This document shows positions 151 through 12,124 of a DNA stretch of 29,547 bases, one piece after another. Positions within the stretch are counted from its first letter, which is position 1. Each line of letters starts with the position of its first letter. The notes under the pieces were generated by a model, which worked only from the letters and a program-made list of their open reading frames with translations, was not told the origin of the DNA and made no database searches. The stretch comes from a virus, in the IMG/VR virus record IMGVR_UViG_3300005613_000311, positions 1 to 29,547 of that record; one strand, written 5' to 3'. Both the position numbers and the translations under genes were made by a program.

Positions 151-421
151 AATGGTATCAGTAGGTTGGAAAACCACTCCATCTTTTGTATATTTATACA
201 TGTAGCTGATGATTAATAGTTACAGCATTACTGGACCGGGGTTCGATACCCCGCATCTCCACTAAAAATTTAATCTCATATGGGGATGACAGGAATTGAC
301 AGGATGTAATGTACTATTATGAAGTTACACCTAAATTTAAATGGCGAATATGCCCTAGCAGCGGCTGCTTGAGCGAGGCTCAACCAAAAGCTAACGGCTT
401 GACCAATGTCGTTAAAGGTCA
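151..421 (+). ncRNA. ssrA: tmRNA (ssrA) in circularly permuted, two-piece order
   Basis: The 3' half of the tRNA-like domain comes first: T arm CGGGG-TTCGATA-CCCCG (237-253), acceptor strand CATCTCC (254-260) and A261. A 20-base spacer (262-281) follows, then the 5' end GGGGATG (282-288). The two acceptor strands pair fully and contain a G3-U70 wobble, the alanyl-tRNA synthetase identity element. Helix 2 also joins the halves: CATTAC (226-231) pairs with GTAATG (306-311), and AATAG (215-219) pairs with CTATT (314-318). The tag frame 343-372 reads GEYALAAAA then TGA. It could begin one codon earlier with N. After the tag come hairpin GAGC/GCTC (371-381) and a possible pseudoknot, TAACG (392-396) with CGTTA (410-414). 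Upstream hairpins (164-175, 187-200) may belong to the acceptor piece. tmRNA rescues stalled ribosomes together with SmpB, and no smpB is seen here. The outer limits are approximate. Confidence 0.88.
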
Positions 422-448
422 ATAGGGGACATAGTCCCCTATTTTTTT
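422..448 (+). terminator. Rho-independent terminator after tmRNA
   Basis: A 9-bp perfect stem, ATAGGGGAC (422-430) with GTCCCCTAT (434-442), has a 3-base loop and is followed by a run of T to 448. It ends the tRNA-tmRNA transcript just before the promoter-like element at 461. Confidence 0.93.
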
Positions 449-2223: not shown

Positions 2224-3027
2224 ATGGATTCAATTATTAACCAACATTTACAGGGAAAACAAAAGAAAAGATATTTCACCCAGGAAACAGAAAATGCCAT
2301 TATTAACTATAATAGCACTCAATGTCCTAAATTGAAAAGTAAGATATATCAAGAAAAAATCCATTATCCTTTCTATAAACTAACCCAGAATATAATTCAC
2401 ACTTTTAAGTTTTATCATACTGAAGTTGAGAATTTAGAAGATCTTCAACATGAAATAATGGTATTTTTATTAGATAAAATCCATATGTTTGATCCTAGTA
2501 GGGGTGCTAAGGCCTATTCGTATTTTGGTACTATTGTTAAAAGGTGGTTAATATTATATAATAATAAAAACTATAGTAAAAAACTAAATAATTTACCTTT
2601 AAATGATCTAGAAATATATTCAGATTTAGATACATCAGATCCTAGTTTTATTCACTCACCTCAAAGAGAACATGATCTAGATTTTATTGTAGAAGAAGGT
2701 TTAGAGGAAACTGATGAATTATCATTTAAGGGTTATAAAAAGAATGATAAATTATCTTTTTTTATAGATAGGTATGTTGAATATTGCACTAAAAACATTT
2801 ATGATATTTTTCCTAAAGAAAGTGATGCTCGCATAGCTGATGCTGTTTTAGAATTATTTAGAAAGAGAGATTATATTAACATTTTTAATAAAAAAGCTCT
2901 ATATATTTTTATTAGAGAACAAGTAGATGTAAAAACTCCTAGAATAACTAAAGTAACTAAAAGACTCCATAGCATTTTCCAAGAAAAATATCTTTTATAT
3001 CTAGAGACAGATATTTTCCCTTCTTAG
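2224..3027 (+). CDS. Late-transcription sigma factor, T4 gp55-like, 267 aa
   Basis: Residues 70-110 match sigma-70 region 2: LEDLQHEIMVFLLDKI, then FDPSRGAKAYSYFGTIVKRWL. This is the standard pattern of core-binding helix, FDP-x-RG turn and aromatic-rich promoter-melting helix. T4 gp55 is 185 aa. This protein is longer, with an acidic insert (about 130-175) and a helical C-terminus. In T4, gp55 directs host RNA polymerase to late promoters with help from the sliding clamp. The gene lies directly upstream of virion genes, and the recurrent TATTTATAA element in this window is the natural candidate for its target. No region 4 helix-turn-helix is evident, as expected for the gp55 type. Confidence 0.83.
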   Translation: MDSIINQHLQGKQKKRYFTQETENAIINYNSTQCPKLKSKIYQEKIHYPFYKLTQNIIHTFKFYHTEVENLEDLQHEIMVFLLDKIHMFDPSRGAKAYSYFGTIVKRWLILYNNKNYSKKLNNLPLNDLEIYSDLDTSDPSFIHSPQREHDLDFIVEEGLEETDELSFKGYKKNDKLSFFIDRYVEYCTKNIYDIFPKESDARIADAVLELFRKRDYINIFNKKALYIFIREQVDVKTPRITKVTKRLHSIFQEKYLLYLETDIFPS

Positions 3028-5709: not shown

Positions 5710-6237
5710 ATGCAACCCAACATCTACAATTTCTTCAAATTTCTAGAGGATAAGGAAGGTAGGCCTATTCCTTTTAAAATTAAACTCATTCATGCCCCGG
5801 AAACTATTACTTCTGATGATTTAAATGTAAAAGGTAATCTTGATTTAGGAAATACTCCAATTACATCTTTACCTGAAGGTTTAACAGTAGGAGGCTTTCT
5901 TGATTTAGCAAATACTCCAATTACATCTTTACCTGAAGGTTTAACAGTGGAAGGTCATCTTTTTTTAAACAACATTCCAATTACATCTTTACCTAAAGAT
6001 TTACAAGTAGGAGGTTATATTAGTTTAATAAATACTAAAATTACATCTTTACCTGAAGATTTACAAGTAGAAAATTCTCTCACTTTAAAAAATACTCCAA
6101 TTACATCTTTACCTAAAGGTTTACAAGTGAAAGGTGATCTTTATTTAGCAAATACTCCTCTCGCTGAAAAATCTGACGAAGAAATAAAAGATTTGATTGG
6201 GCCTACCGGATTTATAAAAAGAAACATTTATAGATAA
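5710..6237 (+). CDS. Leucine-rich-repeat protein, cassette copy 1, 175 aa
   Basis: Residues 1-37 form a conserved head (MQPNIYNFFKFLEDKEGRPI, ending in APETITSDD). Five 20-residue repeats with pattern LxVxGxLxLxNTxITSLPxG follow, encoded by exact 60-base units starting at 5821, 5881, 5941, 6001 and 6061. A sixth half-repeat and the conserved tail LAEKSDEEIKDLIGPTGFIK end the protein. The repeat resembles the short LPX-type bacterial LRRs of secreted effectors, which fold as a curved solenoid for protein binding. There is no signal peptide or membrane segment. Close paralogues lie at 11528 and 29120. Function is unknown; protein recognition is inferred. The cassette sits between virion genes and a kinase gene, as an insert. 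Confidence 0.85.
   Translation: MQPNIYNFFKFLEDKEGRPIPFKIKLIHAPETITSDDLNVKGNLDLGNTPITSLPEGLTVGGFLDLANTPITSLPEGLTVEGHLFLNNIPITSLPKDLQVGGYISLINTKITSLPEDLQVENSLTLKNTPITSLPKGLQVKGDLYLANTPLAEKSDEEIKDLIGPTGFIKRNIYR
5821..6120 (+). repeat. Tandem 60-base LRR-coding units, array 1
   Basis: Five in-frame units of exactly 60 bases each begin with TTA and end with the codons for SLPxG/D. The ACATCTTTACCT core is shared by all. Arrays 2 (11639-12007) and 3 (29231 to the window end) use the same unit, with 63-base variants. Confidence 0.92.
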
Positions 6238-11527: not shown

Positions 11528-12124
11528 ATGCAACCCAACATCTACAACTTCTTCAAATTTCTAGAGGATAAGGAAGGTAGGCCTATTCCTTTTAGAGTTA
11601 AGCTCATCCATGCTCCTGAAACTATTACTTCTGATGATTTAAATGTAAAAGGTAATCTTGATTTAGGAAATACTCCAATTAAATCTTTACCTGAAGGTTT
11701 AAAAGTGGGAGGTTTTCTTAGTTTATATAATTGTAAAAATCTTACATCTTTACCTGAAGGTTTAAAAGTGGGAGGTTCTCTTGATTTATATAATTGTAAA
11801 AATCTTACATCTTTACCTAAAGGTTTAAAAGTGGAAGGTTCTCTTGATTTAACAAATACTAAAATTACATCTTTACCTGAAGGTTTACAAGTGGGAGGTT
11901 CTCTTGATTTAACAAATACTAAAATTACATCTTTACCTGAAGGTTTACAAGTGGGAGGTTCTCTTGATTTATATAATTGTAAAAATCTTACATCTTTACC
12001 TAAAGGTTTACAAGTGAAAGGTGATCTTTATTTAGAAAACACTCCTCTCGCTGAAAAATCTGACGAAGAAATAAAAGATTTGATTGGACCTACCGGATTT
12101 ATAAAAGGAAACATTTATAGATAA
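11528..12124 (+). CDS. Leucine-rich-repeat protein, cassette copy 2, 198 aa
   Basis: The 37-residue head and the tail (LAEKSDEEIKDLIGPTGFIK) are almost identical to those of the protein at 5710, and the nucleotide match extends upstream through the promoter-like element. The middle differs: six repeats, three of 20 residues (NT-x-I type) and three of 21 residues (NCKNL type), at 11639, 11699, 11762, 11825, 11885 and 11945. The last two-repeat segment is identical over 123 bases to part of cassette 3. This shows repeat number and type changing while the ends stay fixed. Its predicted role, an LPX-type LRR binding surface, is inferred. It closes the bracket around the kinase, multi-domain and zinc-ribbon operon. 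Confidence 0.85.
   Translation: MQPNIYNFFKFLEDKEGRPIPFRVKLIHAPETITSDDLNVKGNLDLGNTPIKSLPEGLKVGGFLSLYNCKNLTSLPEGLKVGGSLDLYNCKNLTSLPKGLKVEGSLDLTNTKITSLPEGLQVGGSLDLTNTKITSLPEGLQVGGSLDLYNCKNLTSLPKGLQVKGDLYLENTPLAEKSDEEIKDLIGPTGFIKGNIYR
11639..12007 (+). repeat. Tandem 60/63-base LRR-coding units, array 2
   Basis: There are six units, of 60, 63, 63, 60, 60 and 63 bases. The 63-base type inserts one codon (NCKNL in place of NTKI). Bases 11836-11958 are identical to 29425-29547. Confidence 0.92.

Follow-up and report, generated by a model that had tools for sequence, protein, structure and literature searches.

A circularly permuted tmRNA gene on a T4-like phage and its likeness to the one-piece tmRNA of Bacteroidota

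Circularly permuted tmRNA genes, which run in the order acceptor half, spacer, tag half, are described from Alphaproteobacteria, Betaproteobacteria and Cyanobacteria and are represented in Rfam by RF04321 (formerly RF01849-RF01851). The phage gene described here shares this order with its bacterial counterparts, as well as the pairing of acceptor and helix 2 across the spacer, the G3-U70 pair and a tag reading frame. The likeness has limits: the phage gene and its homologues score 59-71 bits against RF04321, compared with 113-162 in bacteria, and the phage gene does not encode CCA, has UUGAC in its D-region and begins its tag with glycine (GE..) rather than alanine. The alphaproteobacterial T loop also differs from that of the phage gene.

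Permuted tmRNA on phages, mainly marine ones, is already published and not new. Among 133 distinct structures of phage tmRNA in 2021, ARAGORN called 53 two-piece, 50 of these from marine or aquatic phages (PMC9004378), and a 2025 tmRNA database holds 79 phage sequences (PMC11915505). The examples from Methylophilales phage Melnitz and from pelagiphages (PMC9004378) resemble the present gene in being permuted and in belonging to T4-like marine phages. The Melnitz tmRNA, however, is reportedly alphaproteobacterial in kind and linked with an early promoter and with a riboswitch for glutamine (PMC9004378), whereas the gene described here has Bacteroidota relatives, is preceded by a motif of the kind that precedes the phage's structural genes, and shows no riboswitch by Rfam. 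The notion that such genes are absent from annotated records was discarded, several phage records already annotating SsrA. No paper on permuted tmRNA in Bacteroidota phages was found in the open-licence literature, taken without supplements, and the Bacteroidota-phage lineage appears to be the unreported part.

A further close counterpart is the one-piece tmRNA that Flavobacteriia carry (RF00023; with tags such as GENNYALAA). It shares with the phage genes a D-region of the form UUUUGACAG or UUUGACAG, a UUGGAC before the T stem, the lack of an encoded CCA (in most) and tags that begin with GE, and in one phage homologue (L217) the T arm and acceptor are identical to those of a Flavobacteriales one-piece tmRNA (L360). 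The two differ in gene order, and the phage gene has one post-tag pseudoknot and encodes a much shorter RNA.

Gene form and conserved structure

The window analysed here is the whole of IMG/VR virus record IMGVR_UViG_3300005613_000311, 29,547 nt in length. Positions 151-448 of this 29.5-kb record contain a circularly permuted (two-piece) tmRNA gene, at a level of agreement beyond chance. The Rfam model RF04321 (tmRNA_permuted) matches 202-372 with 66.4 bits (E 6e-11, cut-off 47). The one-piece model RF00023 reaches 34.6 bits, under its cut-off of 47, and matches the 3' part alone, which rules out a one-piece identity. ARAGORN, which is independent of Rfam, calls a permuted tmRNA (tmRNA*) at 171-463 with the tag GEYALAAAA. 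A preliminary description, made from the letters of the sequence, had proposed a permuted gene and a comparison of the Rfam models; the scores of both models, the ARAGORN call and the covariation in relatives described below bear it out.

All parts of the gene lie on the plus strand. The acceptor (3') piece at 201-261, delimited by RF04321, ARAGORN and covariation, comprises one side of helix 2, the T arm, the 3' half of the acceptor stem and the discriminator A261. Its T arm occupies 237-253 (stem 237-241/249-253, loop TTCGATA), as seen in the sequence, the RF04321 match and the homologue alignment. The acceptor 3' half CATCTCC (254-260) pairs with GGGGATG (282-288) to form a perfect 7-bp stem in which G3 pairs with U70; all of its cells are paired in the homologues (100%), and no CCA is encoded at its 3' end. 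Between the halves lies an intervening sequence of 20 nt (262-281), which is expected to be removed. The tag (mRNA-like) piece at 282-422, placed by ARAGORN, RF04321 and the alignment, has its expected 5' end at the acceptor 5' half and continues through the D-region, the opposite strands of helix 2, the tag, hairpin H5 and a pseudoknot.

Helix 2 consists of three segments: an outer one (201-207/323-329), with two-sided changes at 4/5 aligned pairs, and middle (214-220/313-319) and inner (226-231/306-311) ones that are exact inverted repeats and covary. The preliminary description had correctly placed helix 2 across the spacer, but as a two-part helix it was too short. The T arm, both acceptor halves, the spacer and G3-U70 all lie exactly where it had put them, and the tag frame, post-tag pairing and terminator that it named can all be located. 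ARAGORN reads the tag frame, GEYALAAAA and a stop, at 343-372, followed by H5 (369-383, pairing 369-374/378-383), an inverted repeat that covaries in homologues, and by an H-type pseudoknot at 393-422 (393-398/408-413 and 399-404/417-422), both stems of which persist among the homologues; in the second stem each of the five pairs shows two-sided change. An intrinsic terminator, recognised from the sequence, closes the gene at 421-448 (stem 421-430/434-443, then a T run).

Homologues were sought by several routes. A query of IMG/VR with the neighbouring gene at 2224-3027 returned 80 loci, 16 of which carry a permuted tmRNA by ARAGORN. A pattern built around the tag matched 56 IMG/VR contigs and nothing in GTDB species genomes, an earlier generic pattern having missed the window tmRNA itself, whose D-region is too short for it by one base; a DNA search with the window region among annotated phages gave no match. 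From IMG/VR 42 distinct homologues were obtained, all on T4-like contigs related to the window, and 37 of them were aligned. Under the proposed structure 95.6% of pair cells in the 37-sequence alignment are standard. Two-sided compensation occurs at 23 of 43 pairs, where shuffling gives a mean of 14.4, and covariation scores 0.364, with 0.171 for shuffled alignments. With the partner strand shifted by one base, pairing falls to about 44%, a control biased in favour of the structure, which was drawn from one member; compensatory changes are unaffected by that bias. G3-U70 is invariant (37/37). The acceptor and helix 2 thus retain their pairing across the spacer, helix 2 with covariation, in the homologues that the preliminary description had proposed to compare. 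Neither of the two outcomes that it had named as fatal to its reading, lack of a tmRNA model match and loss of this pairing, is seen.

The tag is conserved as well. A complete frame with its stop is retained in 42/42 sequences, 41 related sequences have GEQV[EK][LM]AMAA at the tag position, and codon variation is mainly synonymous or exchanges Leu and Met. The spacer varies from 16 to 90 nt. In four homologues (L211, L233, L234 and L240) it includes an inserted AT-rich palindrome, about 50 nt long, with TATATTCA..GATATAAT repeats, and on one phage contig (L210:3480-3844) the spacer contains a complete tRNA-Ala (TGC) gene. A permuted tmRNA of nominally archaeal origin has been reported with this layout, tRNA-Ala lying in the intervening sequence (PMC11915505). 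Its presence in L210 suggests, as a possible explanation of that entry, that a contig from a phage was binned into an archaeal MAG. The one archaeal MAG with a related terminase gave no match for a permuted tmRNA.

Phage, host and promoter context

Homologues of portal gp20, prohead protease gp21 and terminase gp17 mark the record as a T4-like phage. Among annotated terminases, that of Flavobacterium phage immuto is the nearest (57%), followed by that of Microcystis phage Mel-JY01 (52%). The best GTDB terminase match (78%) is in a Flavobacteriales MAG; most of the nine best lie in Bacteroidota-labelled MAGs, Flavobacteriaceae included, and 1 in Maricaulis. MAG binning is weak host evidence, here in agreement with the isolate phage immuto, and a host in Bacteroidota is probable. 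Members of this group normally carry a one-piece tmRNA, found in 96 of 99 sampled Bacteroidota genomes; a permuted match turned up in 1 of 395, inside a phage-like region. On all three points, T4-like phage, Bacteroidota host and one-piece tmRNA in that group, the preliminary description had anticipated these results. The single permuted locus (L367/L475), with tag GKVIQMNNAPVRLAA, adjoins phage-type DNA polymerase, helicase and exonuclease genes and is likely a prophage. Contig C23 (L365, L476) of the Flavobacteriales MAG NAT55 carries a second, one-piece tmRNA with the tag ADTSVLALAA; the contig is small, the MAG also holds related phage contigs, and this tmRNA is possibly phage-borne.

The gene at 2224-3027 has a weak match to sigma-70 region 2, just under the Pfam cut-off, and is a putative gp55-like sigma. 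Relatives that carry the tmRNA keep it in a constant location, about 2.1-2.7 kb upstream of this sigma-like gene. The tmRNA is present in 11 of the 30 related loci with enough upstream sequence; about half of the relatives without it carry tRNA genes upstream, several at the place of the tmRNA.

Just 5' of the tmRNA lies a promoter-like motif, ATATTTATA at 190-198, with TATTTATA at 191-198, identified by motif statistics and by a distance to the tmRNA that hardly changes among the homologues. Of 243 TATTTATA sites in 60 related loci, 61% fall 3-21 nt before an ORF start, compared with 6-21% for permuted-letter versions. Within the window the motif occurs at 191, 461, 3044, 5688, 11506, 21479 and 26064, and it also precedes the ORFs at 480, 3058, 5710, 11528, 21493 and 26090. 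By analogy with the T4 late promoter TATAAATA, whose reverse complement is TATTTATA, it is probably a late-type promoter of this phage lineage. The proteins encoded at 5710-6237 and 11528-12124 are paralogous, with ITSLPEGL-type repeats and near-identical ends.

Origin of the permutation and proposed role

A source in one of the groups known for permuted tmRNA, as the preliminary description had implied, finds little agreement in the gene itself, which is nearest in sequence and tag to Bacteroidota one-piece tmRNA. Three sets of genes were compared: 32 permuted genes from Bacteroidota phages, 53 from other phages and 22 alphaproteobacterial ones (the Pseudomonadota reference loci had alphaproteobacterial-type tags, and no set was labelled betaproteobacterial). 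An encoded CCA is found in 0/32, 44/53 and 18/22 of these, respectively, and UUGA in the D-region in 31/32, 3/53 and 0/22. Gly-first tags occur in 32/32, 2/53 and 0/22, a count that is partly circular since 25 T4-like sequences were grouped by tag; no such circularity affects the counts for CCA and the D-region. Assignment to the alphaproteobacterial or cyanobacterial subtype (Ala-first tag, UCGAC, usually CCA) was rejected, with Gly-first tags in 25/25, UUGA in 25/25 and CCA in 0/25. The nearest tRNA-like domain (TLD) belongs to a Bacteroidota one-piece gene in 21 of 25 cases.

Trees of these genes, which rest on about 76 columns, point the same way with less uniformity. When both reference sides were constrained alike and the two trees compared directly, placing the phage genes on the Bacteroidota side was better by 58 lnL units (AU p 0.02, SH p 0.06). 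Under other, weaker constraints a single clade of all permuted genes was not rejected (AU 0.16 and 0.28), searches less informative than the direct comparison. A model built from the lineage failed as a group separator, giving no clean split: it scores other phage permuted tmRNAs at up to 68 bits and those of Bacteroidota phages at 20-79 bits. Given these mixed tests, a fourth circular permutation of tmRNA, arising in Bacteroidota phages from the one-piece gene of a host and now common to unrelated T4-like and crAss-like phages whose hosts keep the one-piece form, is favoured but not claimed as shown; its chances are put at about even. If it is true, a rare rearrangement of three bacterial groups also arose in the viruses of a fourth, and phages supply hosts that already have a rescue RNA with one that is built differently.

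Could all permuted tmRNAs instead share one origin? The permutation may have happened a single time, in Alphaproteobacteria or phages of theirs, for instance; the gene would then have passed through marine phages and later been adapted to Bacteroidota hosts by convergence or by recombination of its tRNA-like ends and tag with host ssrA. Permuted tmRNAs are indeed common in other aquatic phages (PMC9004378), several other phage genes reach 60-68 bits with the lineage model, 4 of 25 TLDs are closest to other phage permuted genes, and the two weaker AU tests leave one permuted clade standing. Such a history would, however, demand parallel change in the D-region, the tag and the loss of CCA, and the direct two-hypothesis test disfavours it; it is regarded as possible but doubtful.

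Two further readings concern function rather than descent. The RNA might inhibit host trans-translation by titrating SmpB as a decoy, an action reported for a molecule of phage DS6A that consists of the TLD only; in E. coli, tmRNA is inhibited by a TLD-like molecule, according to the work cited in PMC4131195 and PMC11915505. A TLD-only RNA of the DS6A type is ruled out here by the presence of tag, H5 and pseudoknot, and the conservation of a tag frame and stop throughout the homologues, followed by H5 and a covarying pseudoknot, none of which a decoy needs, makes a decoy role improbable. A gene that has lost its function by decay, or is a mere passenger, is less likely still: the patchy distribution, with just 11 of 30 related loci carrying the gene, would suit it, but it is contradicted by strong compensatory change and an invariant identity pair across divergent phages.

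The reading that is preferred, with somewhat better than even confidence, is that of a working permuted tmRNA of a T4-like Bacteroidota phage, derived from the host gene by a separate permutation, composed of two pieces and acting in ribosome rescue with host SmpB. By analogy with established tmRNA biology, a single transcript would run from the TATTTATA promoter, starting near 200-205, as far as the terminator. Cleavage in front of G282 would be the work of host RNase P, 3' processing would take the spacer away up to A261, and a host enzyme would add CCA. The two pieces would then be held together by the acceptor stem and the three-part helix 2, with alanine charged onto the G3-U70 acceptor. 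This RNA is predicted to bind host SmpB and to rescue ribosomes that stall late in infection, adding the tag GEYALAAAA and so directing the products to host proteolysis. SmpB (PF01668) was not found in eight long phage contigs, so that function would depend on the host protein. The preliminary description had likewise suggested that the gene could sustain ribosome rescue in infected cells, or else put tags on host products. On this account the gene would be a rearranged Bacteroidota one-piece tmRNA, separate from the permutations of Alphaproteobacteria, Betaproteobacteria and Cyanobacteria, and the rearranged form would be common to phages of Bacteroidota.

Carriers in other phage groups

A distant search with a relative reached other carriers by way of the T arm: Chryseobacterium phage MA9V-3, Maribacter phage Panino and the crAss-like phages cr125_1, cr114_1, cr10_1 and cr50_1. 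ARAGORN calls a permuted tmRNA in 6/6 of these, and all except cr125_1 pass the RF04321 cut-off; their GenBank records annotate the gene simply as SsrA. They resemble the window gene in their Gly-first tags, UUGAC D-region and lack of encoded CCA, traits found in Flavobacteriia one-piece tmRNAs but not in other permuted genes, and cr125_1 and cr114_1 also have the AACGGC..GTCGT post-tag pattern in common with its lineage, but they belong to unrelated phage groups, with other tags and mostly longer spacers. With T4-like and crAss-like carriers and with Chryseobacterium and Maribacter isolates, the purpose of phage tmRNA and any advantage of a two-piece form during infection would become testable.

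The crAss-like loci hold further small RNAs. A tRNA-His lies within the permuted tmRNA spacer of cr114_1 (L489:745-817), and RAGATH-9 and RAGATH-22 RNAs are found upstream of crAss-like permuted tmRNAs (L485:489-657, L489:221-388 and L491:57-223). The Cellulophaga phages phi40:1 (L487) and Calle_1 (L488) have the one-piece form by both ARAGORN and Rfam, with an unusually long tag, AQIEANMEAVNAILNLEVAVGV.
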